This document shows positions 7,573 through 52,738 of a stretch of 59,951 nt of DNA, piece after piece (positions within the stretch are counted from its first letter, which is position 1; every line of letters starts with the position of its first letter). The notes below the pieces were generated by a model that saw only the letters and a program-made list of their open reading frames with translations, had not been told where the DNA came from and made no database searches. A program made the position numbers and the translations under genes. Origin of the DNA: Microcella alkaliphila (GTDB lineage: Bacteria > Actinomycetota > Actinomycetes > Actinomycetales > Microbacteriaceae); assembly GCF_004216855.1 (NCBI RefSeq), contig NZ_SGXT01000001.1, positions 1-59,951 on the forward strand, written 5' to 3'.

Positions 7573-8594
7573 GCCGGTTCCACCAGCGATGGGGACGCCG
7601 ATGAACGCCGAATGATCAGTGACGGGGTGGCGACGTGCTCCCGCTCTTGAGCATCACCGGGTTCTTCGATCAGCATGGCGGCGGCAAGGCTACCGATTGC
7701 CTCGTTTCCCGGATCGATCGTGGTCAGCCCGATCTCTCGAAGGCCAGAGAGGTAGGTGTTGTCGTAACCGGTGAGAGCCACCTGATTGCCCGTGCGCTCC
7801 GCATAGCCGGCGATTGCCGCCATCGCGCCCACGGCCGCCAAATCATTCACGGCGGTAATCGCGGAGGGGGGTGCGGGATCGTCGAGTACCTGCTGCGCCG
7901 CGGCGTATCCGGCCGCCTCAGAGTAATCGGCCGCGCTGATGCGGATGTGGTCCCCAAGACCGAGCTCGACCATGGCTTCGCTATATGCCGCTGCCCGTGC
8001 GACCGAAACCGGGCCGCCTTCCCCGCCGAGGTGTGCGATACGCCTATGACCTTGCTCCGCCAAGTGACGTACCACCATCCGCATGCCGGCAGTATCGTCT
8101 CCGCGCACGGTGCGCGCGTGAGGCAGCCCTTCGGGGATGGCGCTGGCGACCACGACGGGAACATTGAGAGCGAGCCCGCCGATCTCCTGCATGTCGGGCA
8201 CGGACCCGACGATGAGGATGCCTTTCGGACGCAGATCGTGAAAGAGACTCAGAAGTCGACGATCCAGGATGTGCTGATCGTCGAGACGAGGCAGCGCCGC
8301 GCTGGTCATCAGGCTCACCTCGCCTGCGGCGGCCAGAGTGAACCGAGCGGCGTCGACGATCTCCGCGAACAACGGATTGTGAAGATCCGCAACGAGGATT
8401 GCGAAGAACCCACTGCCGGTGCCGGCAAGAGAGCGCGCGACGAGATTCGGCCGGAATCCCAGTTCTTCGGCCGCATCGAGCACGAGCTGACGCCGAGTCT
8501 CACTCACCGTATGGGGACGGGTGTATACGAGCGATACGAGAGATTTTGAGACCCCAGCCCGCTGAGCGACGTCGCGAATGGTCGGGCGTTTCAT
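7569..8594 (-). CDS. LacI-family transcriptional regulator
   Basis: The 341-residue protein has the LacI helix-turn-helix at its start (MKRPTIRDVAQRAGVSKSLVS) and a periplasmic-binding-protein-like effector domain (AILVADLHNPLFAEIV; ITAVNDLAAVGAM; VALTGYDNT). The start at 8594 is chosen because the HTH begins there; an in-frame start 31 codons upstream would add an unrelated extension. It is transcribed divergently from the ABC transporter at 8816. It probably represses that operon and responds to its substrate, a cyclitol or derivative (inference). Confidence 0.9.
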   Translation of the reverse strand: MKRPTIRDVAQRAGVSKSLVSLVYTRPHTVSETRRQLVLDAAEELGFRPNLVARSLAGTGSGFFAILVADLHNPLFAEIVDAARFTLAAAGEVSLMTSAALPRLDDQHILDRRLLSLFHDLRPKGILIVGSVPDMQEIGGLALNVPVVVASAIPEGLPHARTVRGDDTAGMRMVVRHLAEQGHRRIAHLGGEGGPVSVARAAAYSEAMVELGLGDHIRISAADYSEAAGYAAAQQVLDDPAPPSAITAVNDLAAVGAMAAIAGYAERTGNQVALTGYDNTYLSGLREIGLTTIDPGNEAIGSLAAAMLIEEPGDAQEREHVATPSLIIRRSSASPSLVEPA

Positions 8595-8680
8595 CGGCTC
8601 GCCACTGCCTTCCGGTCGAGCGAGGCGCCGTTGGAAATTATCACGAAAAGATACCTTCGTCCGTCTGAAGAGAATTACTC

Positions 8681-8716
8681 TTGACATTCAGGGCATGATG
8701 ACAGCATCATTATGTA
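8681..8716 (+). promoter_or_regulatory. Candidate promoter with LacI-type operator for the transporter operon
   Basis: A TTGACA (8681-8686) matches the -35 consensus. Directly downstream is a perfect inverted repeat ATGATG-ACAG-CATCAT (8695-8710), which lies where a repressor would block polymerase. The -10 is not clear (CATTAT or TATGTA near 8708-8716). Placement between the divergent LacI gene and the transporter supports an operator role. Confidence 0.5.
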
Positions 8717-8815: not shown

Positions 8816-9925
8816 ATGAAGAAGTTCACTCCGCTGATCGTTGCGGTCAGCGCCCTCACGATCGTGTTGGCTGGATGTTCCGGTGGCAGCTCGGGTGGCG
8901 ACGCCAGCAGCGACGCCGGCGGGGACGGTCAGCAGGTCTTCATGCTGCTGCCGAACTCGACCACGACCCGCTTCGAAGCGCGAGACGCACCGTACTTTGA
9001 GGAGGCGCTCGCTACTGAGGCCCCCGACGCGGAGCTGACCGTCCTGAACGCCGAGGGCGATCCAGCTAAGCAGCAGCAGCAGGTCGAAGACGCCATCACT
9101 CAGGGCGCGTCCGTGATCGTGCTCGTTTCGGCCGACGCGAACCTCGCCGCCGGCTCGCTAGCTCTGGCTGATCAGGCGGGCGTTCCCGTGGTGCTCTACG
9201 ACCACGACGCCATCGGCGGTCCGGCGGCAGCGCAGGTGGTTTTCGATTCACTCGCCGTGGGCGAAGAACAGGGTGCGCGGGCGGCTGAGCTCGCAGAAGC
9301 CATGGAAGGCGAGGGCTTGAAGGTGGCCCGCATCATGGGCAACCCCGGGGAGTACGGCACTGAGCAGTACACCAAGGGTCAGAACGAGCACCTGCAGCCG
9401 CTCATCGACAGCGGCAAGATCGAGGTCGTCTGCGAGCAGAACATCACCAACTGGGATCCCGTGGTAGGCCAGGCCTTCATGGAGGACTGCCTCGCTCAGC
9501 AGAGCAACGACCTCGACCTGATTGTCGCCATGAACGATGGTCTGGCCGGTGCATCGATTGCTGCACTCACAACTCAGGGTCTCGAAGGGACGATCCCCGT
9601 GACCGCCGGTCAGGACGCCACCGTTGAGTCGTTGAACTACATCGTTCAGGGCTTCCAAGACAGCACCGTCTTCAAGGACCTGCGCCTCCAAGCGGAAGGG
9701 GCCGCCAAGATCACTGCGGCACTGCTGCGCGGCGAAGAGGTGCCTGAAGACCTGATCAACGGCGAAGTGGACAACGACTTCCAGATGGTCCCCGCAATGT
9801 TCCTCCCTGTATCGAACGTGACCATCGACAACATCCAGGACGTCGTTGACGCCGGGGTGTGGACGTGGGAGCAGATCTGCCAGGGCGCTGAGGAGACCGA
9901 AGTGTGCGTGGAGAATCTGCCGTGA
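8816..9925 (+). CDS. Sugar/cyclitol ABC transporter substrate-binding lipoprotein
   Basis: The 369-residue precursor has a lipoprotein signal peptide (MKKFTPLIVAVSALTIVLAG, then C at about residue 21) and a Peripla_BP_4 domain. The domain resembles xylose-, ribose- and inositol-binding proteins (VIVLVSADANLAAGSLALADQAGVPVVLYD). It captures substrate outside the membrane for the ATPase and permease that follow. The start has GAAGGACG about 8 bases upstream. Its stop overlaps the GTG start of the ATPase gene. The neighbouring iol-type genes point to an inositol or inositol derivative. Confidence 0.9.
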   Translation: MKKFTPLIVAVSALTIVLAGCSGGSSGGDASSDAGGDGQQVFMLLPNSTTTRFEARDAPYFEEALATEAPDAELTVLNAEGDPAKQQQQVEDAITQGASVIVLVSADANLAAGSLALADQAGVPVVLYDHDAIGGPAAAQVVFDSLAVGEEQGARAAELAEAMEGEGLKVARIMGNPGEYGTEQYTKGQNEHLQPLIDSGKIEVVCEQNITNWDPVVGQAFMEDCLAQQSNDLDLIVAMNDGLAGASIAALTTQGLEGTIPVTAGQDATVESLNYIVQGFQDSTVFKDLRLQAEGAAKITAALLRGEEVPEDLINGEVDNDFQMVPAMFLPVSNVTIDNIQDVVDAGVWTWEQICQGAEETEVCVENLP

Positions 9926-10734
9926 GTGACAACACCGCTCAGGTGGTCCGGCCCTCGAGAGACTTCGAGGGCCAGGCCCCCATCCTCAGCCTCACCGGGA
10001 TCAAGAAGGCTTACGGCGCAGTGACCGTGCTGCGCGGTGTCGATCTTCAGATCCGCCCTGGCGAGGTGGTCGCCCTCGTCGGTGACAACGGCGCCGGCAA
10101 ATCCACCCTGATCAAGACCGTCGCGGGCATCGTCCGGCCGGACGAGGGCGAGTACATCTTCGACGGCAAGCAAGTGGACATCCGGACGCCCAACGACGCG
10201 ACGTCGCTCGGGATCCAGACCGTCTACCAGGACCTCGCGCTATGCGACAACCTCGATGCGGTGCAGAACCTGTTCCTGGGCCGTGAGCTCGCCGGAGCCC
10301 CCATCTTCGGGCGACGGGTGAAGCGTGCCGAGTCGCAGAAGCGTGCGAAAGAGGTGCTGCGCCAGCTGCGGCTGGACAGCATCTCGCTGACCCGCCCCGT
10401 GGGCGCGATGTCGGGCGGCCAACGTCAGAACATCGCCATCGCACGGTCCATTCTGTGGAAGCCGAAGCTCGTTCTCTTCGACGAGCCGACCGCGGCGCTC
10501 AGCCACAGCGCGGCCGCGCAGGTCGGGGAGCTCATCAAAGGCCTCGCCGCTGACGGTCTCGGGGTCCTCGTCGTCTCGCACGACATCCACCAGTTCGTCA
10601 TCGACGTGACAGACACCACCTACGTCCTCCGGCTCGGCCGGGTCGCCGCCCGCTTCAACTCCAAGGAAGTGTCCGGCGAGACCATCGTCAACTCGATGGT
10701 CGGCGGCAATGAGGGAGTGAACTCAGCAGGATGA
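9922..10734 (+). CDS. ABC transporter ATP-binding protein (single-domain, CUT2 type)
   Basis: A 270-residue ATPase with Walker A GDNGAGKST, Q-loop VYQDLALCD, signature MSGGQRQ, Walker B LVLFDEP and switch VVSHD. The GTG at 9922 is chosen because GTGA overlaps the stop of the binding-protein gene; an upstream in-frame start at 9904 would add six residues. The signature begins with M rather than L. It overlaps the permease by 4 bases. Confidence 0.9.
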   Translation: MSDNTAQVVRPSRDFEGQAPILSLTGIKKAYGAVTVLRGVDLQIRPGEVVALVGDNGAGKSTLIKTVAGIVRPDEGEYIFDGKQVDIRTPNDATSLGIQTVYQDLALCDNLDAVQNLFLGRELAGAPIFGRRVKRAESQKRAKEVLRQLRLDSISLTRPVGAMSGGQRQNIAIARSILWKPKLVLFDEPTAALSHSAAAQVGELIKGLAADGLGVLVVSHDIHQFVIDVTDTTYVLRLGRVAARFNSKEVSGETIVNSMVGGNEGVNSAG

Positions 10735-12011
10735 GCACACACAACACGGGGCCTGCCGGCACGACCGGCATTGGCGATCCCGACACGGATATCGCGATCG
10801 AGACGCCTTCGGGCACGATCCAAACTCCTCCGCAGAAGCCGAATCGTCGGCAGATGCTGACTGCCCTGGCAACCAATTTCCGCGCTCTGCCGGTACTGGT
10901 CGCCCTCCTCGCGCTGGTGATCTTCTTCTCCACACAGTCGGACGTCTTCCTGTCCAGCAGGAACATCTCCAACCTCCTGGTGCAGACCGTCGTCACCGGC
11001 ACAATCGCACTTGGGCTGGTTTTCATCTTGCTCGTCGCCGAGATCTCCCTGTCGGTAGCGGCGATCAGCGGTGTCACCTCGGTGTTCATGGCCAAGTTGG
11101 TCGTCGAGGCCGGTGTTCCTGGCTGGCTCGCGATCGTCATCGCGATTTCGGTGGGCGTCCTCATCGGAATCCTCACCGGAGCGTGGGCGACCCGGTTCCT
11201 TGTACCCACGTTCGTCGTGACGCTGGGCCTGGGACTCGTGCTGAACGGCATACAGCTCGCGCTCCTGCCGGATTCGGGTCGTTACAGCCTGCTAGGCACT
11301 GGCATTGAGGACATCGCCGGCACCTACCTCACCGGAGTGTGGTCCTGGGGTTTCCTGGTCCTGGCCGTCGCCGCGGTCGGTCTGCTCGCGCTGAGCCGCT
11401 ACGGACGAAACCGGTCCTTCGGCATCGAGACATCGTTGCTGCGGGTGGTTATTCTGCCCGTCGCGGCCATGGCGATCATCGGCGGCGTCCTCGTCGCCGC
11501 TCTGAACAGCAGCCAGGGCGTGCCTCTCCCGGTTGCCATCTTCATGGTGCTGCTCGGACTTGCCGGCTATTTGCTGAGCGAGACCAGATTCGGTCTGCAC
11601 CTGTACGCGGTCGGCGGCAACGTCGACGCGGCAGCGCGATCGGGCATTTCCGTCCGCCGCATCAAAATGATCGCCTTCGCGATCAGCGGCGGCCTTGCGG
11701 CCCTCGCGGGTGTGATCGCGGCATCGCGGCTGCTCGGCGTCTCCGTCTCGTCCGGCGGCGGCATCGGTGGTGGTGCACTCCTGCTGAATGCCATCGCCGC
11801 AGCCGTGATCGGCGGCGTCAGCCTTTTCGGCGGTCGCGGACGCGCCTCCTCGGCGCTGCTCGGCGCCTTGGTGATCGGCACCGTCAGCAATGGACTGAAC
11901 CTGATGGGTGTCGAAACCCAGGTGCAGCTCATCGTCACCGGCGTGCTCCTCGTCCTGGCAGTCACCCTGGACCGGACCATCGAACGTGCCACCGGACCCA
12001 CCACCAAATAG
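10731..12011 (+). CDS. ABC transporter permease (XylH-like, CUT2)
   Basis: This 426-residue membrane protein is longer than the other two permeases in the window. About a dozen hydrophobic segments follow a hydrophilic N-terminal tail of about 50 residues. The family signature is in LLVAEISLSVAAISG (about residue 100). The length resembles xylose-type permeases. The start overlaps the ATPase stop as ATGA. A strong hairpin follows the stop before the dehydrogenase genes. Confidence 0.9.
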   Translation: MSTHNTGPAGTTGIGDPDTDIAIETPSGTIQTPPQKPNRRQMLTALATNFRALPVLVALLALVIFFSTQSDVFLSSRNISNLLVQTVVTGTIALGLVFILLVAEISLSVAAISGVTSVFMAKLVVEAGVPGWLAIVIAISVGVLIGILTGAWATRFLVPTFVVTLGLGLVLNGIQLALLPDSGRYSLLGTGIEDIAGTYLTGVWSWGFLVLAVAAVGLLALSRYGRNRSFGIETSLLRVVILPVAAMAIIGGVLVAALNSSQGVPLPVAIFMVLLGLAGYLLSETRFGLHLYAVGGNVDAAARSGISVRRIKMIAFAISGGLAALAGVIAASRLLGVSVSSGGGIGGGALLLNAIAAAVIGGVSLFGGRGRASSALLGALVIGTVSNGLNLMGVETQVQLIVTGVLLVLAVTLDRTIERATGPTTK

Positions 12012-12019
12012 ACCGACTG

Positions 12020-12065
12020 CGTTGGCCGGCCCGCTCCGCAAAGCGGCCCGGTGGGCTGGCCAACG
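12020..12065 (+). terminator. Strong hairpin between transporter and catabolic genes
   Basis: CGTTGGCC (12020-12027) pairs with GGCCAACG (12058-12065). Inside, GCCC pairs with GGGC, and CCGC-AAA-GCGG forms the tip. No T-run follows. It may terminate part of the transcripts or protect the transporter mRNA. Confidence 0.6.
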
Positions 12066-12119
12066 TGTTCATCACCCTTCCCAGCGGTTCGACCGCTCTC
12101 AGCATCCAGGAGATCTCAC

Positions 12120-13331
12120 ATGACCGCCTCCGGCGAAACCCCCCGCACCGTTGGTGTCGGCCTGATCAGCGTTGGCTGGATGGGACGACTGCACAGTCGC
12201 GCGTACTCCGTACTTCCCTTCTTCTACCCGGAACTGGGTATCCGCACCCGCCTCGTCGCCGCCGCCGACACCGCACCGGCCGGCCGGGAATACGCCGCAA
12301 ACGTGCTCGGATTCGAGCGGACCTTCGCCGACTACCGCGACGTCCTGGCCGACCCCGAAGTCGAGGTGGTGTCGATCTGCGCCCCGAACTTCCTGCACGC
12401 TGAAATCGCAGTCGCGGCGGCCGAAGCGGGCAAACCGTTCTGGGTGGAAAAGCCCGTCGGAAGGTCCGCGATCGAGACCGCCGCCGTCCGCGACGCCGCC
12501 GAGAAGGCCGGCGTGCCCACCACAATCGGTTTCAACTACCGACATGTGCCCGCCGTCGAGCACGCCCGTCAGCTGATCAACGAGGGCACGATCGGCACCA
12601 TCACCAACGTCCGCGGACGCTTCTTCGGAGGGTTCTCCTCCAACCCGGAAGACCCCTTCACTTGGCGCTTCGAGCGGGAGCAGAGCGGCAGCGGTGTCCT
12701 CAACGACCTGATGGGCCACCTTGCCGATCTGATCCACTACCTCCTCGGTCCGATCGGTTCCGTCACCGCCGTCACCGGCACCTACCTCACCGACCGACCC
12801 GGACTGAAAGGCACCCCTCACGAGGGGACACGGGTCCCGGTCCAGAACGAGGACTACGCCACGATGCTCATCCGCTTCGACGACTCCGCCGTCGCTGCCG
12901 GCGCCCTGGGCAGCCTCGAGGCGTCACGCATCGCCGTCGGACCCAAGTCGGAGTACGGCTTCGAGATCTTCGGCACCGAAGGCTCACTGCGATGGGAGTT
13001 CGAACGCCTCAACGAAATCGAGATCGCGATTGGTCGCACCGGGTCCCACGTCGGCTACACCCGGGTGTTCGCGGACCGCAGCTTCCCTGAGTACGACCGG
13101 TTCCAGCCCAGCTCCGGCACAGGGATGGGGTACGACGACCTCAAAGTCATCGAGGCGAAGAAGTTCCTCGTCTCCGCCACCGGCGGCCCGGCGGAAGGCT
13201 CCAACATCGCGGACGCGCTCGCCTCCGCACAGGTGCTCAGCGCCGCCGAGGAGTCGGCCGCGTCCAGCCAATGGGTGACCACCCCGGTCGTGCCCGGTAA
13301 CACCAGCAACACAAAGGAGAAGAGCGCGTGA
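12120..13331 (+). CDS. Gfo/Idh/MocA-family oxidoreductase
   Basis: The 403-residue NAD(P)-dependent dehydrogenase has an N-terminal Rossmann fold (VGLISVGWMGRLHSRAY), the family lysine in FWVEKPVG and a C-terminal substrate domain (HLADLIHYLLGP). The Rossmann glycine motif is G-x-x-x-x-G rather than GxGxxG (LISVGWMG), so cofactor binding may be unusual. The ATG at 12120 follows CAGGAG. It overlaps the next gene by GTGA. The likely role is oxidation of a cyclitol or pyranose hydroxyl; it resembles the protein at 44753-45943. Confidence 0.87.
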   Translation: MTASGETPRTVGVGLISVGWMGRLHSRAYSVLPFFYPELGIRTRLVAAADTAPAGREYAANVLGFERTFADYRDVLADPEVEVVSICAPNFLHAEIAVAAAEAGKPFWVEKPVGRSAIETAAVRDAAEKAGVPTTIGFNYRHVPAVEHARQLINEGTIGTITNVRGRFFGGFSSNPEDPFTWRFEREQSGSGVLNDLMGHLADLIHYLLGPIGSVTAVTGTYLTDRPGLKGTPHEGTRVPVQNEDYATMLIRFDDSAVAAGALGSLEASRIAVGPKSEYGFEIFGTEGSLRWEFERLNEIEIAIGRTGSHVGYTRVFADRSFPEYDRFQPSSGTGMGYDDLKVIEAKKFLVSATGGPAEGSNIADALASAQVLSAAEESAASSQWVTTPVVPGNTSNTKEKSA

Positions 13332-14227
13332 CCACGCCTGCCAAGATCGCCGGAGCCCCCATCAGCTGGGGTATCAGCGAGGTCGCCGACTGGGGCGTGC
13401 AGTTGGCACCCGACCGGGTCCTGTCAGAGATGCGCGCGCTCGGGCTCGCCGCGACCGAAATCGGTCCCGACGGATTCCTTCCGCCCTCACCCGAAGCAAA
13501 GGCGAAAACCCTCGCAGCGTACGACCTGACCGCTGTCGGCAGTTTCGTGCCTGTGGTGATGCACCAGGAGGACACGGATCCCTTGCCGCGAATTCTCCGC
13601 GAACTGGACGACTACGCGGCTGCGGGAGCGGACATCCTCATTGTCTGCGCCGTCACCGGCCTGGACGGATACGACACCACAAGGGAGGCAATGACCGACC
13701 GTCAATGGACGACGCTGCTGAACAACCTGGACAAGATCGCAGAGGCGGCCAGCGCTCGAGGGGTGACCGCGGCGCTTCACCCGCACGTCGGTTCCATGGT
13801 GGAAACCGCCGAGGACGTCACCCGTGTGGTCAACGACGCGTCGATACCGTTCTGCTTCGACACCGGCCACCTGATGATCGGCGGCACCGATCCGGTCGCT
13901 TTCGCGAAGGAACACGCCGCGCGGATCGCCCACACACATCTCAAAGATGTCGCCATTGCCGGCATGCAACGGGTGAAGGATGGCGAGATCAGCTACTTCG
14001 AAGCGATCGTCGCCGACAGCCTGTACCGCCCGCTCGGTCAGGGAGACGTCGATGTGCGCGCCATCGTGAAGAGCCTCATCGACAGCGGCTACACCGGCTG
14101 GTTCGTCCTCGAACAGGACAAGGTCGTCACCGCCATGCCCGCCGAGGGGGAGGGACCGATCTCTGACGCCCGACAGAGCGTGACGTTCCTGCGCGGGGTG
14201 CTCGACGAGTTGCAGAGCACATCATGA
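13328..14227 (+). CDS. IolE/MocC-like inosose dehydratase (xylose isomerase-like TIM barrel)
   Basis: A 299-residue TIM barrel. Marks shared with IolE are APISWGI at the start, ALHPHVGSMVET, FCFDTGHLMIGG (metal Asp and His), IAHTHLKDV, a GQGDVD segment and GWFVLEQD near the end. IolE dehydrates 2-keto-myo-inositol to the dione opened by IolD, whose gene lies downstream. MocC of rhizopine catabolism is the close alternative. It overlaps its neighbours on both sides by 4 bases, so it is tightly coupled with two dehydrogenases. Confidence 0.75.
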   Translation: MTTPAKIAGAPISWGISEVADWGVQLAPDRVLSEMRALGLAATEIGPDGFLPPSPEAKAKTLAAYDLTAVGSFVPVVMHQEDTDPLPRILRELDDYAAAGADILIVCAVTGLDGYDTTREAMTDRQWTTLLNNLDKIAEAASARGVTAALHPHVGSMVETAEDVTRVVNDASIPFCFDTGHLMIGGTDPVAFAKEHAARIAHTHLKDVAIAGMQRVKDGEISYFEAIVADSLYRPLGQGDVDVRAIVKSLIDSGYTGWFVLEQDKVVTAMPAEGEGPISDARQSVTFLRGVLDELQSTS

Positions 14228-15315
14228 CTGGGCTCCGCATCGGGGTCGTCGGCCTAGGACGAGTCGGCGTCATGCATGCGCGCAACATCGCCCAGGCGGA
14301 CGGCGTGTCCGATGTGATCCTGATCGGGCGCGACACCACCAAGACCGAGCACGCCGCGGACCTGATCCGTTCGTCCATCCTCGACGGCGCACCCGTCGAG
14401 CTGGCCGGCGAGTTCGCACCGACCGGCAACATCCCCGCCCGGATCCAGACGACCACAGCGCGATTCGGTGCAGCTCTGAGCGGGCTGGACGGCATCGTCG
14501 TCGCCACCTCCACTGAGACTCACCCACAGCTGGCCATCGAGGCCGCAGAAGCCGGAATCCCCGCGCTTGTGGAGAAACCGCTCGCCCTGGACCTGGCAAC
14601 GCTGGAAGCCACGTGCCGGCGACTGGAAGCGACCGGCTCGCCCGTCATGATCGCCTTCCACCGCCGGTACGACCCGGCACACCGCGCCTTGCGGCAGCGC
14701 ATTGCCGACGGTGAGGCCGGCACCGTCCGGATCATCTCCGCGACCGACCACGACCGCCTGCCACTCGATGTCGATTACATCCCTCGTTCCGGCGGCATTT
14801 GGCGCGACCTGCTGATCCACGATTTCGACATCATCCCCTGGGTCACCGGTCAGCGAATCGTCAGCGTCACCGCGCACGGCAGCGTCCTGGACGCCGCCGC
14901 CCACGCCGAACACGGCGACGTGGATACCGCTGCCGCCTTGCTGACGCTCGAGTCCGGTGCCATCGCCACCGTCACCGCAACCCGGCGCAACGGTGCAGGG
15001 CAGGATGTCCGGCTGGAGGTGTTCGGCAGCGATGGCACCTTCGGCGCGGGGATCAGTGACCGTACCCCGGTCACCTCCACCGAACCCGGCGGGAACGCGC
15101 CGACCGAGCCGTACCAGCAGTTCATCGACCGCTTCGAGCTCGCGTTCCGGGCAGAGACTGACGCCTTCCTCCGCCTGGCAGCCGGAACAGGAGAAAACGG
15201 CAGCCCACCGCGAGCAGGCGTCGACGCTCTCCGCGTCGCGCTCGCCGCGGCCCGCTCCCTGGAAACGGGCGCCACCGTCACCATCAACGGAGAAGCCTTG
15301 GAGGCAGTCTCATGA
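14224..15315 (+). CDS. Gfo/Idh/MocA-family dehydrogenase, probable inositol dehydrogenase paralogue
   Basis: The 363-residue protein has Rossmann motif GVVGLGRVG, a lysine motif PALVEKPLA and GGIWRDLLIHDFD, the loop found in inositol 2-dehydrogenases (Asp/His of the active site). Compared with the next gene it has an insert of about 25 residues after the first beta-alpha units. It overlaps both neighbours by 4 bases. It probably oxidises a different inositol isomer or derivative than the adjacent IolG. Confidence 0.82.
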   Translation: MTGLRIGVVGLGRVGVMHARNIAQADGVSDVILIGRDTTKTEHAADLIRSSILDGAPVELAGEFAPTGNIPARIQTTTARFGAALSGLDGIVVATSTETHPQLAIEAAEAGIPALVEKPLALDLATLEATCRRLEATGSPVMIAFHRRYDPAHRALRQRIADGEAGTVRIISATDHDRLPLDVDYIPRSGGIWRDLLIHDFDIIPWVTGQRIVSVTAHGSVLDAAAHAEHGDVDTAAALLTLESGAIATVTATRRNGAGQDVRLEVFGSDGTFGAGISDRTPVTSTEPGGNAPTEPYQQFIDRFELAFRAETDAFLRLAAGTGENGSPPRAGVDALRVALAAARSLETGATVTINGEALEAVS

Positions 15316-16322
15316 GTTCCCCGCTTCGGATCGGCCTCATCGGTACCGGCCGCATCGGTCAGGTGCACGCACGCAGCGTCGCCAGCATCGACGACGCCGA
15401 ACTGACGTGGGTGTGCGATCCATTCGAACAGGGCGCCCGGTCGCTGGCCGCGCGTTTCGGCGGCCAGGTCACCACCGACTCCGCAGAAGTGTTCGCCGCA
15501 GACGACGTCGACGCGGTGATCATCGCCTCGCCCACCTCCACGCATGTGTCCCTGATCGACGCGGCCATCAACGCCGGCGTGCCTGCTCTCTGCGAGAAGC
15601 CCATCGATCTGGACATCGGGAAGGTCGACGGACTTCGGCAGCGCGCGAACGAGTCCACCGTGCCATTCGCGCTCGGATTCAATCGCCGCTTCGATCCCCA
15701 CTTCGCTGCCGTGCACCGCCGTGTACTCGCGGGGGAGATCGGCCGGCTTGAGCAGCTGACCATCACAAGTCGTGACCCCGCCCCTCAGGCCAAAGAGTAC
15801 GTCGCCAGTTCCGGCGGAATCTTCCGCGACATGACCATCCACGACCTGGACATGGCGCGCTTCTTCGTCCCGGACATCGTGGAGGTGACCGCGCGCGGGG
15901 CGAACCAGTTTGACGAAGGAGCACGCGAGCTGGGGGACTACGACGCCGTCCAACTCGTACTGCGCGGTTCCCACGACGAGCTGATCTCCATCACCAATTC
16001 CCGCCACAGCGCCTACGGTTACGACCAGCGCCTGGAAGCTTTCGGGGACCGTGGCCTGCTGCAGGTCGGCAATGTCGGCCCCGACGTGGTGCGAGCGTTC
16101 ACCGGCCAGACGGTGGAAGCCGTCGGCCCGTACTTCAACTTCTTCGTCGAACGCTATGTCGACGCGTACCGCCTCGAGCTGATCGAGTTCCTCAAAGCCG
16201 TCCGTGGCGAGAATTCGACCAGCCCCAGCTTCGAGGACGGCCGTGCGGCGCTGGTTTTGGCCAACGCCGCCGAAGAGGCTGCGCGAACCGGAGCCAGCGT
16301 GAAAGTGGACGTGCACGCATGA
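15312..16322 (+). CDS. iolG: Inositol 2-dehydrogenase
   Basis: The 336-residue protein matches classical IolG length and motifs: LRIGLIGTGRIGQVHARS, CEKPIDLD (catalytic lysine), FNRRFDPHF and GGIFRDMTIHDLDMAR. It oxidises myo-inositol (or scyllo-/chiro-) at C2 to an inosose with NAD in the cytoplasm, the first step of the pathway. Start and stop overlap neighbouring genes by 4 bases. Confidence 0.87.
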   Translation: MSSPLRIGLIGTGRIGQVHARSVASIDDAELTWVCDPFEQGARSLAARFGGQVTTDSAEVFAADDVDAVIIASPTSTHVSLIDAAINAGVPALCEKPIDLDIGKVDGLRQRANESTVPFALGFNRRFDPHFAAVHRRVLAGEIGRLEQLTITSRDPAPQAKEYVASSGGIFRDMTIHDLDMARFFVPDIVEVTARGANQFDEGARELGDYDAVQLVLRGSHDELISITNSRHSAYGYDQRLEAFGDRGLLQVGNVGPDVVRAFTGQTVEAVGPYFNFFVERYVDAYRLELIEFLKAVRGENSTSPSFEDGRAALVLANAAEEAARTGASVKVDVHA

Positions 16323-17206
16323 GCGTCCCGCCCCTCGTCGCAACCTGCTGGACCAGCGCCGGCGCCGTGATGCCGATGGATCAGCCAGAGCTCAGCCCCC
16401 ACTCGGCGCTGGAACGGCTCACCGCGATCGCGATCACCGGCTGGAGCGGATTCGGTTTCAGTCAGGACGACCTCCGGCAAGTCGAAGCCACGATCGGATT
16501 CGCCGCCGTGCGCACTGCAGCTGATCAGCTCGGGCTCACACACATCGAAGTGGAGATAGCCGGTGGCTGGTGGGGCCCCGACGATCGGCTCTGGCGGCCG
16601 ACCTGGGAGCTGCTGCTACGCGCGGCCAAGGCGCTGAATGCGAAGTTCATCAAGGTAGGAACCGCATTCGGTGAACCACTGAAGGACATTGCGCCGCTGG
16701 TTGGACCGATGCGCTGCATCGCCGAGGAGGCACACGCGGTCGGCACGACCATCGCACTGGAACCCCTGCCGTTCGCAATGATCGCGTCGATGCCGCAGGG
16801 CGCGGACCTCATTCGCGCGGTGGACCACCCCGCCGCCGGACTGGTCGTGGATTACTGGCACGTGTTCCGGGCGAACACGTCCCTGGACGAGCTGGCAGAG
16901 CGCGTACCGGTGGAAATGGTGTTCGGCGTGGAACTCAGCGACGCCCAGCACGAGACCGTGGGCACGCTGTTCGAAGACACGCGTGACCGTCGCACTCTGC
17001 TGACCGAGGGCGCCCAAGACGTACCCGGGTTCATCCGCACCATCCGTGAGATGGGCTACACGGGAGCCTGGGGAGTAGAGATCCTCTCCGCCGAACACCG
17101 CGCCCGCAGCCTCGAAAACGGGCTCGCCCTTGCCCACGAATCCGCTGTGCGCGCCTTCGAGATGGCAGACCGCCCCATCAACGCCACGATCTCGTCCCCC
17201 ACCTGA
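16319..17206 (+). CDS. Xylose isomerase-like TIM-barrel protein (isomerase/epimerase family)
   Basis: The 295-residue protein has the metal-site pattern of the AP-endonuclease-2 superfamily: IALEPLPFA (Glu), LVVDYWHVF (Asp, His), VFGVELSDAQ and WGVEILSAEHR (Glu). It is distinct from the IolE-like protein upstream. Candidate roles are inosose epimerase/isomerase (IolI-like) or an enzyme for a substituted inositol. It overlaps iolG by 4 bases. Function is not settled. Confidence 0.75.
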   Translation: MSVPPLVATCWTSAGAVMPMDQPELSPHSALERLTAIAITGWSGFGFSQDDLRQVEATIGFAAVRTAADQLGLTHIEVEIAGGWWGPDDRLWRPTWELLLRAAKALNAKFIKVGTAFGEPLKDIAPLVGPMRCIAEEAHAVGTTIALEPLPFAMIASMPQGADLIRAVDHPAAGLVVDYWHVFRANTSLDELAERVPVEMVFGVELSDAQHETVGTLFEDTRDRRTLLTEGAQDVPGFIRTIREMGYTGAWGVEILSAEHRARSLENGLALAHESAVRAFEMADRPINATISSPT

Positions 17207-17267
17207 CGCGCCGCTTCGCGATTTTCACTGCGAACAGACCACGAACGAAACGAAGGAAAGGAACCCC

Positions 17268-18134
17268 ATGGCTCAGCCACGCATCTTCCGCGCCGGCGAC
17301 TGGGACACCATCACTCCCGATATCGCAGGCTGGACGTACATCAGCTTCACCGTCAAGACGCTCGCGCCGGGTGAATCGATCACCATCAGCGCCGACGAGC
17401 AAGAGCACGCGCTCGTGCCCCTCTCGGGCACGGTCACAGCGACCGTGAACGGCCAGGACATCGTCTTCGGCGGCCGAGCCAACGTCTTCGAGGGTCTCGG
17501 ACACACTCTCTACGTGGGTCGGGACACCGAGATCGTCCTCACCTCTGCCGCGGGCGTGGAGGTCGCGATCGCATCCGCCCCTGCCACCACCAAACACGAC
17601 CTCCGGCTGGTGACCCCGGATGACCTTCCCGTGGAGGCCCGCGGAGGCGGAAACGCGACCCGCCAGGTCGCGACGCCGATCCCACCCGGCTTCCCCGCGG
17701 ACCGGCTGCTCGTCGTGGAGGTGTGGACGCCGGGTGGCAACTGGTCCAGCTTCCCCCCGCACAAGCATGAGCACGACCACGACGGTGAAGCCGAACTGGA
17801 AGAGACGTACTACTACAGGCTGCGAGATTCCGAGAATGGGTGGGCCATCCAGCGCGCGTACTCGCCGGAACGGGGCTTCGAACTGGCAGAGCCGGTCTAT
17901 GACGGTGACATCTGCACGTTGCCTTGGGCGTACCACACCACGGTGGCCGCGCACGGACATGACCTCTACTACCTGAACGTTCTCGCCGGTCCGGCACCCG
18001 AGCGCACGTTGCAGGCGTTCCAGGATCCGGCCCTCGCGCCGCTGCAGAACGCCTGGCCCACCCTCGGCACCGACGTCCGAGTCCCCTTCATCCCCCGCTA
18101 CCCCGAGTCGACCTCCTCCATCGAACAGGACTGA
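17268..18134 (+). CDS. iolB: 5-deoxy-glucuronate isomerase
   Basis: A 288-residue bicupin. Metal-binding histidines are in FPPHKHEHDHDGEAELEE, a characteristic IolB block, followed by ETYYYRL and later LPWAYHTTVAAHGHDLYYLN. It converts 5-deoxy-D-glucuronate to 2-deoxy-5-keto-D-gluconate. The start follows GAAGGAAAGG. It is 4 bases upstream of iolD. A second, longer IolB is at 54369-55283. Confidence 0.92.
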   Translation: MAQPRIFRAGDWDTITPDIAGWTYISFTVKTLAPGESITISADEQEHALVPLSGTVTATVNGQDIVFGGRANVFEGLGHTLYVGRDTEIVLTSAAGVEVAIASAPATTKHDLRLVTPDDLPVEARGGGNATRQVATPIPPGFPADRLLVVEVWTPGGNWSSFPPHKHEHDHDGEAELEETYYYRLRDSENGWAIQRAYSPERGFELAEPVYDGDICTLPWAYHTTVAAHGHDLYYLNVLAGPAPERTLQAFQDPALAPLQNAWPTLGTDVRVPFIPRYPESTSSIEQD

Positions 18135-18138
18135 TGCA

Positions 18139-20019
18139 ATGTCGCAGACCACGTCTCCCCCCACCACCCGCCTCACCGTCGGCCAGGCGGTGATCAAGTT
18201 CCTGCAGGCGCAGTACGTCGAGCGTGACGGCGTCACCGAGAAGTTCTTCGGCGGCGGGTTCGGGATCTTCGGTCACGGCAACGTGGCCGGCATCGGCCAG
18301 GCCATGCTGCAGTACGAGAACGAGTTCCCCTACTACCAGGGCCGCAACGAGCAGGGCATGGTGCACATCGGCATCGGCTACGCCAAGATGCGCAACCGGC
18401 TCGGCGCCCTCGTCGTCTCCACCTCCATCGGGCCCGGCGCCACCAACATGGTCACCGGAGCGGCCACGGCGACTGTCAACCACCTGCCTGTGCTGCTGCT
18501 GCCAGCTGACGTGTTCGCCACGCGCGCCACCGGCGCCGTGTTGCAACAGCAGGAGATGCCGTACTCGATGGACATCACCGCAAATGATTCCTTCCGCGCC
18601 GTTTCGCGCTATTTCGATCGCGTCAACCGGCCCGAACAGCTGGCCTCTGCACTCCTGGAAGGCATGCGTGTGCTGACGAGCCCTGCCGACACGGGCGCGG
18701 TCACCATTGCGCTTCCTCAGGATGTGCAAGCAGAAGCATTCGATTTCCCGGAGGCTCTGTTCGCCGACCGGGTCTGGCACATCGCCCGAAATCGCGCCGA
18801 CCGCGCTGCGATCGCCCGCGCCGCCGCGATCATCAAGGCGGCGAAGAACCCGGTGATCATCGCCGGCGGGGGCGTCATCTATTCAGAGGCCACCGAGCAG
18901 CTCGTGGCGTTCGCGGAAGAGACCGGCATCGGTGTCGGCGTGACGCAAGCAGGCAAAGCGTCCTTCCCCCACCAGCACGACCTGGCCCTCGGCGCCCTCG
19001 GCGCCAGCGGCTCCAAGTACGCCAACGAGATCGCCGGCGAGGCCGACGTCGTCATCGGCATCGGCACCCGCTACACGGACTTCACCACCGCCTCGAACAC
19101 GCTGTTCGGCAACCCCGACGTGAAGTTCGTCAATATTAACGTCGCTGAAATCGACGCGCTCAAAGAGTCCGCCACCCCCCTCGTCGGTGACGCGCGCGAG
19201 ACTCTGACCGACCTGCTCGAGGCTTTGGCCGGGTGGAGTGTGTCAGACGAGATCCGTCAGGCGGCAGTCTCGAACGCCTCTGCGTGGCGCGCCGAGATCG
19301 ACCGGATCGTCGAGCTCGACGACGGTGCAACGCTGTCGCAGGCACAGATGCTCGGCATCCTCAACGCTGCCGCTGGTGAACGCGATGTCGTCGTGAACGC
19401 CGCCGGGTCCATGCCCGGCGACCTGCACCGGCTGTGGCGACCAGGCTCGACCAAGGGGTACGACATCGAGTACGGCAACTCCTGCATGGGATACGAGATT
19501 CCCGGCGCCATCGGCAACGGACTCGCCGACCGCACCCGGCACGTCTTCGGCCTCATCGGAGACGGCACCTACCTGATGCTCTCCCAGGAGATCCTCACCG
19601 CAGTGCAGGAGCACTTGAAGATCACGTTCGTGATCGTCGACAACTACGGCTACGGCTCGATCGCGGCCTTGTCCGAAACACGCGGCTCACAGGCATTCGG
19701 CACCCGCTTCAACGAGCGCGGCGACGGATCTATGCACGACGGCGCCCGTCTCGAGGTCGACTTCGCCGCGAACGCGGCCAGCTATGGGGCGAAGGTGTGG
19801 ACCGCCGACAACGCGACCGACTTCACCCGTGCGCTGGAGGAGGCCAAAGCATACGAGGGCACCAGCGTCGTCTACGTCCAGGTCGATGCGCAGGGACGCT
19901 TCGGCGGCTCCGGCGCGTGGTGGGACGTTCCCGTGCCTGAGGTATCCACGCTCGAATCCACGCAACAGGCGCGCGTCGAGTACGACCAGAACCGCGCCAA
20001 GCAGCATCTCTACCTGTGA
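18139..20019 (+). CDS. iolD: 3D-(3,5/4)-trihydroxycyclohexane-1,2-dione hydrolase
   Basis: The 626-residue ThDP-dependent enzyme hydrolyses the cyclic dione to 5-deoxy-glucuronate. Seen are the N-terminal ThDP glutamate region (YYQGRNEQGMVH), the central domain (NPVIIAGGGVIYS) and the C-terminal diphosphate motif GDGTYLM ending in DNYGYGS. Length fits IolD (about 635). It lies directly behind iolB. A hairpin follows the stop. The paralogue at 55280-57193 shares the same blocks. Confidence 0.93.
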   Translation: MSQTTSPPTTRLTVGQAVIKFLQAQYVERDGVTEKFFGGGFGIFGHGNVAGIGQAMLQYENEFPYYQGRNEQGMVHIGIGYAKMRNRLGALVVSTSIGPGATNMVTGAATATVNHLPVLLLPADVFATRATGAVLQQQEMPYSMDITANDSFRAVSRYFDRVNRPEQLASALLEGMRVLTSPADTGAVTIALPQDVQAEAFDFPEALFADRVWHIARNRADRAAIARAAAIIKAAKNPVIIAGGGVIYSEATEQLVAFAEETGIGVGVTQAGKASFPHQHDLALGALGASGSKYANEIAGEADVVIGIGTRYTDFTTASNTLFGNPDVKFVNINVAEIDALKESATPLVGDARETLTDLLEALAGWSVSDEIRQAAVSNASAWRAEIDRIVELDDGATLSQAQMLGILNAAAGERDVVVNAAGSMPGDLHRLWRPGSTKGYDIEYGNSCMGYEIPGAIGNGLADRTRHVFGLIGDGTYLMLSQEILTAVQEHLKITFVIVDNYGYGSIAALSETRGSQAFGTRFNERGDGSMHDGARLEVDFAANAASYGAKVWTADNATDFTRALEEAKAYEGTSVVYVQVDAQGRFGGSGAWWDVPVPEVSTLESTQQARVEYDQNRAKQHLYL

Positions 20020-20026
20020 TCGCATG

Positions 20027-20052
20027 GCGCCGGGTGTCGCACGTCCCGGCGC
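20027..20052 (+). terminator. Hairpin after iolD
   Basis: GCGCCGGG (20027-20034) pairs perfectly with CCCGGCGC (20045-20052), with a 10-base loop and no T-run. It lies between iolD and the aldehyde dehydrogenase gene and may partly separate their expression. Confidence 0.5.
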
Positions 20053-20089
20053 TGAGTTCGCAGCATCCGCTATTTGAGAGAGAAGATCC

Positions 20090-21559
20090 GTGACCACCTC
20101 TGCCGACGCCCTCAGCCGCATCCTCCACGACCTGCCGACTGGACTCTTCATCGGAGGCGAGTACCGCGCAGCCTCCGACGGTGCAACGTTTGCCGTCATC
20201 GATCCAGCCAACCTGCGGACGCTCACGCACGTCGCCAGCGCGAGCGTCAACGATGCCGTCGCTGCCGTCGATGCTGCAGCCGCGGCGGCAGCCGGCTGGG
20301 CAGCAACCCCGCCTCGCCAACGCGCGGTGGTCCTCTCTCGTGCATTCGAGCTCATGACCGAAGCCGCGGACGATCTGGCCACCTTGATCACCGCGGAGAA
20401 TGGCAAAGTGTTCTCGGACGCCCGCGGAGAGGTCGCGTACGCCGCCGAATTCCTGCGGTGGTACGCGGAGGAGGCGGTCCGTATCCCCGGCGCGCTGCAG
20501 ACCGCACCCTCCGGCGCAAACCGCATTCTCGTCTCCCATCGCCCGGTCGGCATCGCCATCCTGGTCACCCCCTGGAACTTCCCCGCGGCGATGGCGACAC
20601 GCAAGATCGGCCCCGCTCTCGCCGCCGGCTGCACCGTCGTGCTCAAGCCCGCCAGCGACACTCCTCTCACGGCGCTGGCGCTAGCGAAGATATTCGAGAG
20701 GGCCGGCGTGCCCGCCGGTGTCATCAATGTCGTCCCCAGTCGGCGCTCCGGGCCCGTTGTCAGCGCAATGATCCACGACCCGCGCACACGGAAGCTCTCG
20801 TTCACCGGCTCAACAGAGGTGGGTGTCGAGCTGATGCGCCTGGCCGCCGACAACGTGCTCAAGACCTCCATGGAACTCGGCGGAAACGCTCCCTTCGTCG
20901 TGTTCGACGACGCCGATCTCGATGCCGCCGTCGCCGGCGCCATGCTGGCCAAGATGCGCAACGGCGGCGAGGCTTGCACGGCTGCGAACCGCTTCTACGT
21001 CCAGGAGGGCATCGCCGCACGATTCAGCGAGGCTCTGGCCGCGAAGATGAGTGCGCTGAAGGCCGGCAACGGACTCGACGACGATGTCCAGCTCGGCCCC
21101 CTCATCAACGAAGCTGCACGCACCGACATCCACGCGCTCGTCACCGCCGCGATCGCTCAGGGAGCCACAGCCATCACCGGTGGAGAGCTGCCGAGCGGGG
21201 AAGGCTACTTCTACCCCGCTACCGTGCTCACCGACGTCGGCCACGACTTCACGATCCTTGACCACGAGATCTTCGGCCCGGTCGCGCCGATCGTCACCTT
21301 CGCCACAGAGCAGGAGGCCATCGACCTCGCCAACGGCACGCCGTTCGGACTGGTGTCCTACGTCTTCACCGGAGACCTCGGCCGCGGTCTCCGGGTCAGC
21401 GAGAAGATCGAATCCGGCATGGTGGGCATCAACCGCGGCCTCGTCTCCGACCCCGCCGCACCGTTCGGCGGAATGAAGCAGAGCGGCATCGGCCGCGAAG
21501 GCGGCGCCGAAGGCCTGCTGGAGTACATGGAGAGTCAGTACATCGCCGTCTCCTGGTGA
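20090..21559 (+). CDS. NAD(P)-dependent aldehyde dehydrogenase (GabD/succinate-semialdehyde type)
   Basis: The 489-residue protein has the ALDH motifs VTPWNFPAA, MELGGNAPFVVF (general-base Glu) and GGEACTAANRF (catalytic Cys), and ends with PFGGMKQSGIGREGG. These are marks of semialdehyde dehydrogenases that form free acids. It lacks the MmsA pattern seen at 52739-54286. In this cluster it could oxidise malonic semialdehyde, 5-deoxy-glucuronate or another aldehyde intermediate (inference). The GTG start follows GAGAGAGAAG. Confidence 0.88.
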   Translation: MTTSADALSRILHDLPTGLFIGGEYRAASDGATFAVIDPANLRTLTHVASASVNDAVAAVDAAAAAAAGWAATPPRQRAVVLSRAFELMTEAADDLATLITAENGKVFSDARGEVAYAAEFLRWYAEEAVRIPGALQTAPSGANRILVSHRPVGIAILVTPWNFPAAMATRKIGPALAAGCTVVLKPASDTPLTALALAKIFERAGVPAGVINVVPSRRSGPVVSAMIHDPRTRKLSFTGSTEVGVELMRLAADNVLKTSMELGGNAPFVVFDDADLDAAVAGAMLAKMRNGGEACTAANRFYVQEGIAARFSEALAAKMSALKAGNGLDDDVQLGPLINEAARTDIHALVTAAIAQGATAITGGELPSGEGYFYPATVLTDVGHDFTILDHEIFGPVAPIVTFATEQEAIDLANGTPFGLVSYVFTGDLGRGLRVSEKIESGMVGINRGLVSDPAAPFGGMKQSGIGREGGAEGLLEYMESQYIAVSW

Positions 21560-21598: not shown

Positions 21599-22339
21599 TC
21601 ACACGCGAGCGGCCGTCGTCTCCAGGGCCTCGGCCGCCCGCCGCAATTCGCCGACCAATGCATCCTGCTTCGTCCTGATCTCGGATGCCAGACCGGCGAG
21701 GGAAAGGGCACCCGCGATGGTGCCCGCTCTACCTTTCACCGGCACGCCGAGCGCGGCGATCCCCTCGGTGACATCTTCATCCGAGATGACATACCCGCGC
21801 CCACGGGTCTTGTCGACGTCGGCACGGAGTTCTTCGCCGCTGGTGAGCGTCTTCGCGGTGAACCGGGTTCTGGGGGACGAGGCGAGGAAGGTGTCGACGT
21901 CGGCGCCGAAGGCCAGCAGGGTTCGCCCCGCAGCGCCGGCGTTGAGTGGCAGGCTCCGGCCCGGCTTGAGCACCAGTACCCCGATTCCGCGACCTTGCTC
22001 CCATTCCAAGCACACGGCTTCGTCGTTTCGCAGCACGGAAAGGTATGCAGTCTGACCAGTGCGTTCGACGAGATCCAGCAGGACGCTGTGCGCACCGCTC
22101 CACTCTCGCATCGACGCGCGGGCGTTGTCGGCGAGGTGCAACCAGCGCAAGCTGAGTCGCGCCGTCGAGTCGGGCAATGACTCAGTCAATCCGATCGCGT
22201 TCAGCCCATCCAGCAGCCGGTAGACACTCGGTCGGGGCATCTGCACACGATCAGCGATCTCGCCGGGAGTGAGTGGACCTTCGGTGCTGAGCACCTCGAT
22301 CACGTCGTCGGCGTTGACGAGCACCTTGATGGGCCTCAT
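21599..22339 (-). CDS. IclR-family transcriptional regulator
   Basis: The 246-residue protein has an N-terminal winged helix (GPLTPGEIADRVQMPRPSVYRLLDGL) and the IclR effector domain (GQTAYLSVLRNDEAVCLEWEQ; RGYVISDEDVTEGIAALGVPV). It is convergent with the aldehyde dehydrogenase gene. Its ATG overlaps the stop of the second IclR gene by 4 bases, so the two are made from one transcript. IclR proteins sense small acids or sugar derivatives. Confidence 0.9.
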   Translation of the reverse strand: MRPIKVLVNADDVIEVLSTEGPLTPGEIADRVQMPRPSVYRLLDGLNAIGLTESLPDSTARLSLRWLHLADNARASMREWSGAHSVLLDLVERTGQTAYLSVLRNDEAVCLEWEQGRGIGVLVLKPGRSLPLNAGAAGRTLLAFGADVDTFLASSPRTRFTAKTLTSGEELRADVDKTRGRGYVISDEDVTEGIAALGVPVKGRAGTIAGALSLAGLASEIRTKQDALVGELRRAAEALETTAARV

Positions 22340-23157
22340 GAATTTTCCAATCCTTCTCCAAAGCCCAGCGCCCGGCTCGCGTCCGCAGCGGCTTCGACGG
22401 TCAGCGTAGCGACGTCCGGCGGCCCCAGGATGATCGCATTCCGCAAACCGCTGACGGAGATGGCGCCTTCCAATTCGCCCCGATGATTGAACACCGGAGC
22501 GCCAACCGCGCCGATCCCGGGGGTGACGTCTTCGTCAGAGATCGAATATCCGCGCGCCCGAATGAGGTCGATGGCATCGCGAAGAACTTTGTCGCCGGGC
22601 ACGTCTTCGCCGTCGCGCCGGCGAACGGCGAATCGCTCGAGGACTGCCTCGCGTTCCCCCTCCGGCAGAAACGCGAGAATCGCGAGCGGCGCCGCGCCGC
22701 GGTAGAGGGGAAGGGAATCCCCGAGTCGCATCGCCAGGGAGCGCACGTCTCTGCCATCCAGCCTTTCCACACAGACCGCGGCGTCCCCGCGACGGAAGCA
22801 GAGAAACGCGGTTGCGCCCGTGTCTCGACGTAACGACACCAGCGCCGCCGTGCACGCGTCGCGGACGCTCAATCGATCCTCCAGACGACTGCCGATTCGC
22901 ACGAAACGCACCCCCAGGCGGAAGTACCCACGGCGAAACTTCGAATCCACCCACCCGATGCTGGACAGCGAGGCCAGTAGACGGTACGTGGAACTCACCG
23001 GCTCGTTCACGGTGTCCGCAAGCTCCTGCGCCGTGGCTTCGCCGATGTCTTCCAGGGCAGCGATGATGGCCCCGGACTTCTCCAGGATCGCCATTCCCTC
23101 CGCGCCTCGTTCTATGTCCACCAGACAATTCTCACCGATCGGACGCCCATTGGGCAA
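22336..23157 (-). CDS. IclR-family transcriptional regulator (second of a pair)
   Basis: The 273-residue protein has a winged helix (GEATAQELADTVNEPVSSTYRLLASL) and an effector domain (GATAFLCFRRGDAAVCVERL; RGYSISDEDVTPGIGAVGAPVF). The start at 23157 lacks a clear ribosome site and is near a TATTTT, so leaderless translation is possible; an in-frame ATG at 23094 is the alternative. It is divergent from the transketolase operon, which it probably controls with its partner. Confidence 0.87.
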   Translation of the reverse strand: MPNGRPIGENCLVDIERGAEGMAILEKSGAIIAALEDIGEATAQELADTVNEPVSSTYRLLASLSSIGWVDSKFRRGYFRLGVRFVRIGSRLEDRLSVRDACTAALVSLRRDTGATAFLCFRRGDAAVCVERLDGRDVRSLAMRLGDSLPLYRGAAPLAILAFLPEGEREAVLERFAVRRRDGEDVPGDKVLRDAIDLIRARGYSISDEDVTPGIGAVGAPVFNHRGELEGAISVSGLRNAIILGPPDVATLTVEAAADASRALGFGEGLENS

Positions 23158-28011: not shown

Positions 28012-28185
28012 TCGCTGGAAGGAATCATACGGCGTCGGCCTTTAGCCCGAACGGACGCGCGCAGCACCGAACTAAGGAGCCCATCAGCCCGCTGGGCGCC
28101 CGTGCCGAGGTGGTGACTGCTGCTTCGACTCCGGCACCCAGCATGAATGGGCCTCCGCACGGCGGACGGGCGATCCGGATTCACC

Positions 28186-41292: not shown

Positions 41293-41317
41293 AAGCCGCT
41301 CCTGTCACACCATTGCG

Positions 41318-41401: not shown

Positions 41402-41423
41402 AGTTGTTCGCTGGAGGCTCACC

Positions 41424-44739: not shown

Positions 44740-44752
44740 GAGCGGTTCCCCC

Positions 44753-52700: not shown

Positions 52701-52738
52701 GCGCTCACACAATCTCTGCCTTCAACGTTAGGAATCCC

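Follow-up and report, generated by a model that had tools for sequence, protein, structure and literature searches.

Inositol is abundant in soil and plants, and in the Bacillus-type myo-inositol pathway (IolG, E, D, B, C, J and A) the standard product of IolB is 2-deoxy-5-keto-D-gluconate. The stretch of DNA analysed here (the window) is one entire contig of 59,951 bases from the 2.69-Mb genome of the actinobacterium Microcella alkaliphila, and it carries a gene block that has IolG, a relative of IolE, IolD, IolB and the presumed intermediate in common with that pathway. Unlike the Bacillus-type pathway, however, the block lacks IolC, an aldolase and MmsA, and a transketolase (TK) and an aldehyde dehydrogenase (ALDH) resembling succinate semialdehyde dehydrogenase (SSADH) stand in their place. 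How, then, would the IolB product be cleaved?

Other described systems resemble parts of this arrangement. In the sulfo-TK pathway of sulfoquinovose (SqwGH, SqwI, SqwF or SqwD), SqwGH acts on an anionic ketose that carries no phosphate, and its acceptor is glyceraldehyde 3-phosphate (PMC12890257). The TK proposed here would likewise take a ketose that has an anionic tail and no phosphate, use a triose phosphate as acceptor and leave an aldehyde for a further enzyme. Its proposed substrate is a carboxylate and not a sulfonate, though, its product would be a C4 acid, and it belongs to actinobacteria, whereas the hosts named in that review for sulfo-TK are strict anaerobes. Moreover, only one TK step is proposed here, unlike in sulfo-TK, because the next carbon is a CH2. 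For the conversion of 5-keto-D-gluconate to tartrate in plants, a transketolase and a semialdehyde dehydrogenase have been proposed in a biosynthetic route that the paper itself calls putative, and the same paper reports an E. coli transketolase mutant as active on 5-keto-D-gluconate (PMC11066805). The C4-C5 cut of a 5-keto aldonic acid followed by a semialdehyde dehydrogenase is shared with that route; in contrast, the substrate proposed here is the 2-deoxy analogue and the setting is an inositol cluster. Finally, the gene order at positions 12051-16322 of the window, Gfo-TIM-Gfo-Gfo, is also that of the iol2 cluster of Corynebacterium glutamicum (oxiC-cg3390-oxiD-oxiE), a comparison made on order alone. 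OxiD of that cluster works on myo- and D-chiro-inositol and OxiE on scyllo-inositol, and IolB, IolD and transketolase are not mentioned for the cluster in the available part of the report (PMC9603128).

Proposed transketolase route and the genes that would carry it

We propose an undescribed actinobacterial inositol pathway, to which we assign a probability of roughly 0.6, in which a split TK of a dedicated subfamily would cleave 2-deoxy-5-keto-D-gluconate to D-malate semialdehyde, such that carbon would enter metabolism as xylulose 5-phosphate and D-malate, and not as dihydroxyacetone phosphate and malonate semialdehyde. Together with the transaldolase-like gene of other iol operons, such a route would make the lower half of inositol breakdown (kinase/aldolase, transaldolase or transketolase) as interchangeable as it is in sulfoglycolysis. 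That the cluster forms an island for cyclitol catabolism, complete in itself and with a TK lower branch, appears quite probable from its sequence, and no description of a TK branch of inositol breakdown was found in titles and abstract openings of the open-licence literature. The proposal draws on gene content, recurrence, clades and motifs, from which the reactions and the cyclitol substrate are inferred.

The dehydrogenases, the IolE-like dehydratase, IolD and IolB would, as their families suggest, convert an inositol to 2-deoxy-5-keto-D-gluconate (HOCH2-CO-CHOH-CHOH-CH2-COOH). Seen from its CH2OH end, this compound is a D-threo ketose, as are xylulose 5-phosphate and fructose 6-phosphate, and presents the geometry of a TK donor. 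The split TK would cut between C4 and C5 and hand the ketol fragment (C5-C6) on to a triose phosphate, which would give xylulose 5-phosphate and leave HOOC-CH2-CHOH-CHO, malate semialdehyde of D configuration. The SSADH-like ALDH would oxidize the latter to D-malate, a product predicted because stereochemistry would be kept through the TK cut. In some hosts a tartrate/D-malate-type dehydrogenase would decarboxylate D-malate to pyruvate, while in other hosts a linked phosphoenolpyruvate carboxykinase (PEPCK) would drain the C4 acid. The PfkB-family protein, as a sugar-phosphate kinase, and PEPCK could both help to regenerate the triose-phosphate acceptor.

The ALDH (20090-21559, plus strand), our candidate malate-semialdehyde dehydrogenase, scores best against SSADH-type models, with 543 bits against TIGR01780 and therefore below the cut-off of 646. 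Alignment with the E. coli enzyme (3jz4) shows that it keeps the pocket motifs MATRK, MRNGGEAC and GLVS, which we take to supply the two arginines and the serine of the SSADH carboxylate pocket. Both arginines are conserved in the TK-linked ALDHs compared, and the serine in those that cover the site (L192_0 does not). Malate semialdehyde, a C4 semialdehyde ending in a carboxylate, is close to the SSADH substrate. The best models and the pocket motifs led us to reject the assignment of this ALDH as MmsA.

The split TK is encoded on the plus strand by an N-terminal subunit (TKN, 23239-24138; PF00456; best solved sequence match 6yak, a split TK) and a C-terminal subunit (TKC, 24135-25070; PF02779/PF02780; 6yaj). 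The two genes overlap by 4 bases; a PfkB-family kinase of the 1-phosphofructokinase type follows 0 bases further (25071-26111; 192.5 bits against TIGR03168, cut-off 216.4) and a GTP-type PEPCK 55 bases further (26167-28011; NF003253, 987 bits), both also on the plus strand. A second PEPCK copy lies on contig 5 of the same genome. The original prediction had pointed to the enzymes of 23239-26111, where a split TK and a PfkB protein are encoded, but it had named neither the enzymes nor a reaction. An ordinary transketolase was rejected as an identity for the TK, which is a member of a split subfamily of its own: in the 149-genome order sample every other TKC stayed at or below 42% identity, and the closer relatives described below came from a later family-level search. 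A gene of the same genome (C1:362744) was rejected as the housekeeping transketolase; its sequence is DXS-like, and it is no reference although it stands as a row in the TK alignment.

Upstream, on the plus strand, lies the gene content that had been predicted for 8816-21559, with a transporter, three Gfo/Idh/MocA proteins, two TIM barrels, IolB, IolD and the SSADH-like ALDH, in which neighbours overlap or are separated by at most 70 bases. The ABC sugar transporter (8816-12011) consists of a substrate-binding protein (8816-9925), an ATPase (9904-10734) and a permease (10731-12011), and its type and position differ among relatives of the cluster. The Gfo-TIM-Gfo-Gfo run opens with a levoglucosan-dehydrogenase-like oxidoreductase (12051-13331); levoglucosan catabolism was rejected as the function of the cluster, given a score of 286 bits against a cut-off of 650 and the presence of IolB and IolD. 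An IolE had been predicted for the cluster; the next gene (13328-14227) encodes an IolE-related TIM barrel, likely an inosose dehydratase, that can be aligned to solved IolE structures (9zmu, 3cny), but at 156 bits (TIGR04379, cut-off 290) it is a distant IolE at best. An IolG-like dehydrogenase (14224-15315; 241 bits, cut-off 355) precedes IolG, inositol 2-dehydrogenase, which passes the same cut-off (15312-16322; 357.4 bits). A second TIM barrel of isomerase/epimerase type (16319-17206; PF01261) gives weak matches to the solved Lmo2234 and IolI. IolB, 5-deoxy-glucuronate isomerase (17130-18134; TIGR04378, 290.6 bits, cut-off 205), and IolD (18139-20019; TIGR04377, 845.6 bits, cut-off 715), which the tree places in a TK-linked clade, both score above their cut-offs. 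The profile match of IolB begins at residue 60, and its real start probably lies downstream of the start of the open reading frame (ORF). None of the genes scanned between 8816 and 28011 encodes IolC, an aldolase (the Cgl0159 type was tested) or MmsA, as had been foreseen for the cluster. The predicted end at 21559, on the other hand, was too narrow, and the block extends to about 28011.

Recurrence, linkage and subfamily marks

A tblastn search of plasmids with TKC (E 1e-40) returned 341 records, one of which exceeded 60% identity, namely plasmid NZ_CP126261.1 of Curtobacterium sp. MCJR17_020. From the first Gfo gene onward its gene order is that of the window: Gfo, TIM, Gfo, IolG, TIM, IolB, IolD, SSADH-like ALDH, two IclR genes on the opposite strand, TKN, TKC, PfkB and PEPCK. 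A LacI gene and transporters lie upstream, arranged differently from those of the window. IolC, an aldolase and MmsA are not annotated in the 41 kb examined, and no IolC match above 32 bits was found on the whole plasmid. A profile of these two TKC sequences, from window and plasmid, matched 14 of 398 genomes of the family at E ≤1e-80, the source genome counted. A scan of genome contigs, which covered the best 80 loci so that more relatives exist than were counted, gave at least 13 named loci at 59-83% TKC identity before a drop to 50%. Across 25 genomes of the same genus, not all of them complete, no TK match at 1e-45 was present, so the block is accessory in this genus. A search of viral contigs found nothing. 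Since the gene set recurs across other genera, the cluster is not a chance grouping.

Linkage was counted over at least 23 non-redundant TK loci with TKC at least 59% identical, window included; Curtobacterium genomes G560 and G579 also carry the TK and were left out. In 15 of the 23 loci both IolD and an IolB sit no more than 10 kb from the TK, and in 16 an SSADH-type ALDH (at least 50% identity) does so (10 of the 15 IolD-linked loci and six of the other eight). Around lower-identity TKC relatives, by contrast, both were absent (IolD 0/58, SSADH-type ALDH 0/58), which gives a Fisher P below 1e-10 that is nominal only because the loci are mutually related and not independent. From 77 control loci, 19 had been dropped as shorter than 12 kb, and the controls were taken without regard to whether their TK is split. 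Test stretches spanned 14-59 kb and controls 12-21 kb, and all IolD and ALDH genes counted lie at most 10 kb from the TK. The linkage includes single gene runs: Tessaracoccus bendigoensis, from a different family, has the order IolD-TKN-TKC-IolB, and Microbacterium yannicii has TKN-TKC-IolD-ALDH followed by a tartrate/D-malate-type dehydrogenase. A split TK linked to ketose-forming genes, as in a sulfo-TK-like arrangement, was thus found in the window and in its relatives.

In the TK tree all 23 TKs form one clade (support 100/100). Linkage to IolD is clustered on this tree (4 changes versus a shuffled mean of 10.6) without a single origin, as well-supported branches force at least two changes. 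A quick tree of IolD, with SH-aLRT support and no bootstrap, separates the 15 TK-linked IolDs from the 43 others by a single branch (SH-aLRT 100); among the 43 are the second IolD of the window and that of M. yannicii. Sequence marks accompany the TK clade. A longer TKN loop, QQ[YF]GW...DR[FY]DR, is common to all 23, with a partial version in outgroup rows L118 and L160. The TKC motif YxGLLNG...GKTHQD is likewise common to all 23; its tyrosine is also seen in several outgroup rows, and the Carboxydothermus hydrogenoformans split transketolase, the nearest solved structure by sequence to TKN/TKC, has a histidine and an aspartate at this site instead, as does 6rjb.

Several loci (L104, L106, L108, L114 and L192) carry the same TK and an SSADH-like ALDH with no iol genes in the stretch. 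SDR-type genes lie near the TK in L104, L106, L108 and L114; by Pfam, L104 also has an amidohydrolase, and both it and L106 have a PRISE-like reductase. These iol-free loci suggest that other 5-keto acids feed the TK and ALDH module. In genome G114 (L079 1-7256 with L204), a relative of the upper module is accompanied by a highly divergent IolD and by an ALDH that is 37% identical and lacks the SSADH arginine motifs, an arrangement that may represent yet another lower route.

Possible outlets for the C4 acid and competing explanations

D-malate was predicted before a tartrate/D-malate-type dehydrogenase (TIGR02089) was looked for, and tartrate dehydrogenases of this type also decarboxylate D-malate. 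Three linked TIGR02089 proteins score 508-535 bits (cut-off 470.4). In M. yannicii the likely GTG start of the gene overlaps the stop of the ALDH gene in the run described above; 4.6 kb separate it from TKC in Pseudoclavibacter helvolus, where it is on the opposite strand; and in G218 it stands beside the transporter genes of the cluster, about 17 kb from the TK. G417 and G533 hold it on a different contig. It was not found above the cut-off in three Curtobacterium genomes, Frondihabitans, G468 or Tessaracoccus, and plasmid NZ_CP126261.1 has no match. In a genus sample of 60 Curtobacterium genomes the TK is present in eight, and PEPCK lies at most 1.2 kb downstream of TKC in all eight; it is the sole PEPCK found in seven of them, while 16 of the 52 other genomes have one. 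The PfkB gene stands between TKC and PEPCK on NZ_CP126261.1 and in C. pusillum DE0370. The TK-linked PEPCK is also the sole copy found in Frondihabitans, and G218, G468 and G522 each have a single PEPCK unlinked to the TK. A pattern noticed post hoc is that none of six records with a linked PEPCK exceeds the TIGR02089 cut-off versus five of seven without one. The simplest reason for a linked PEPCK would be a C4-acid or gluconeogenic outlet.

Several observations weigh against the proposed TK route. Eight of the 23 TK loci show neither IolB nor IolD in the stretch covered, and this TK may thus accept other substrates or a wider range of them. An ALDH of at least 50% identity is absent near five of the 15 IolD-linked TKs, and PfkB is linked in just eight of them. 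TIGR02089 exceeds its cut-off in only five of 13 genomes or records examined and stays below it in the genome of the window (best 340 bits versus 470.4); a linked copy lies within 5 kb of the TK in two of 23 loci and at about 17 kb in a third, and a relative (46% identical) occurs in one of the 58 controls as well. PEPCK, moreover, is not a direct consequence of pyruvate as the end product of D-malate. Most directly, IolC is present in all 15 IolD-linked genomes, so that the keto acid could go to IolC instead. A first set gave IolC above the cut-off in 16 of 20 genomes or records, including 12 of 12 IolD-linked genomes; the four entries without it were the plasmid record taken alone and three genomes in which the TK has no neighbouring IolD (G229, G270 and G557). 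A second set was positive in nine of nine entries, which identical coordinates reduce to seven distinct genomes, two of them already in the first set, and it supplied the remaining three IolD-linked genomes. A genome with the TK-iol block and no IolC was sought in both sets and not found. For this reason, the TK branch must be seen as a parallel addition and not a replacement, and it may serve another cyclitol, work under another condition or get around some limit of the kinase route. IolC was placed relative to the TK in 14 of the 15 genomes, all but Tessaracoccus. In 11 of them the two are more than 150 kb apart or on different contigs, which in drafts is no proof of distance; IolC is nearer in the window, at 43 kb in G417 and within the same locus in M. 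yannicii.

The window itself holds a canonical set about 29 kb from the first cluster, as had been predicted. IolC (50783; 365.5 bits, cut-off 300), a Cgl0159-type aldolase (51600; PF22649) and MmsA (52739; 675.8 bits, cut-off 448.5) occupy 50783-54286, and with an IolB and an IolD, both above cut-off, the set spans 50783-57193. The absence of a canonical IolE there was borne out, in that the TIM barrel at 57220 has no IolE match at E 0.001. The two clusters might be complementary halves, the first making 2-deoxy-5-keto-gluconate for the IolC, aldolase and MmsA of the second, with the TK operon as the pentose phosphate side of something else. The presence of IolC in all 15 IolD-linked genomes leaves complementation some room, and cluster-1-like upper modules stand with IolC in L082 and beside canonical clusters in L079 and L205/L077, so the upper module is not bound to one lower route. 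We nevertheless consider this explanation unlikely: the second cluster already has its own IolB and IolD (the two IolDs of the window are 49% identical), the TK shares gene runs with IolD and IolB or ALDH in Tessaracoccus and M. yannicii, a dedicated IolD clade accompanies it, and the plasmid block has TK and PEPCK and no IolC. The original prediction had left open whether the clusters were complementary halves or the first fed another lower pathway. The latter is favoured, because the plasmid block lacks IolC, aldolase and MmsA within 41 kb and the dedicated IolD clade accompanies the TK.

Another lower pathway need not involve TK cleavage of the standard intermediate. PfkB-family kinases related to the 25071 enzyme phosphorylate a CH2OH adjacent to a ketone, and the gene sits in the TK operon, so this kinase could phosphorylate the IolB product for cleavage by a housekeeping aldolase, with the ALDH taking malonate semialdehyde. 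Such a non-orthologous kinase route is very improbable. The protein was rejected as an IolC, with 24 bits against the IolC model and no significant blastp match to the IolC of the window (24% over 63 residues, E 0.11); the kinase was not found near seven of the 15 IolD-linked TKs; the SSADH-type models and pocket motifs of the ALDH argue against malonate semialdehyde; and the TK would be left unexplained. Alternatively, another cyclitol or an inositol glycoside could yield a different ring-opened keto acid that the TK would cut likewise; another C4 semialdehyde would result, such as tartrate semialdehyde where a cluster lacks IolB and IolD. This explanation, which overlaps the preferred one, is consistent with the complete canonical set in the same genome, the distinct IolD clade, the levoglucosan-dehydrogenase-like and second TIM enzymes, the TK and ALDH modules without iol genes (L104, L106, L108, L114 and G229) and the naming of the TIGR02089 model as tartrate dehydrogenase. 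We regard it as doubtful, as IolB and IolD exceed curated cut-offs for the standard reactions.

If TK cleavage of 2-deoxy-5-keto-D-gluconate is correct, the intermediate would be D-malate and not malonate semialdehyde, which would provide a physiological source of D-malate and a use for D-malate dehydrogenase, and a transketolase and a dehydrogenase would become available for making C4 hydroxy acids from inositol. Surveys in which IolC counts as a core gene for the use of inositol, as it does in PMC9430895, would then miss a second lower route.

Regulators and other genes of the window

A LacI-type regulator (7569-8687, minus strand), with NCBIfam LacI-type matches below cut-off, is divergent from the cluster, and homologues at 40-64% stand next to related clusters. 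Between the ALDH and TKN genes, profile searches identified two IclR-type regulators on the minus strand (21599-22339 and 22336-23157), a pair that recurs beside TK and/or IolB/IolD in relatives.

A transaldolase-family protein (41313-42518), divergent from a GntR gene, has a KIPAT motif whose lysine is presumably catalytic. Homologues at 63-69% lie within iol operons of other families in the order, with IolC and aldolase in L216 and L218, with IolC in L217, and without IolC in the 16-20 kb of L220 and L221. By analogy with sulfo-TAL, this protein could serve as a transaldolase for the IolB product. Between the two clusters, 42950-46312 (minus strand) encodes an SDR protein, a weakly IolE-like TIM barrel (39 bits) and a second levoglucosan-dehydrogenase-like Gfo protein, and the TIM and Gfo pair recurs next to IolD in L079 and L220. 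Lastly, a 710-residue ORF (28147-30279) has no Pfam or NCBIfam match at E 0.001, and a partial 34% match in L072 suggests that it is a real protein.

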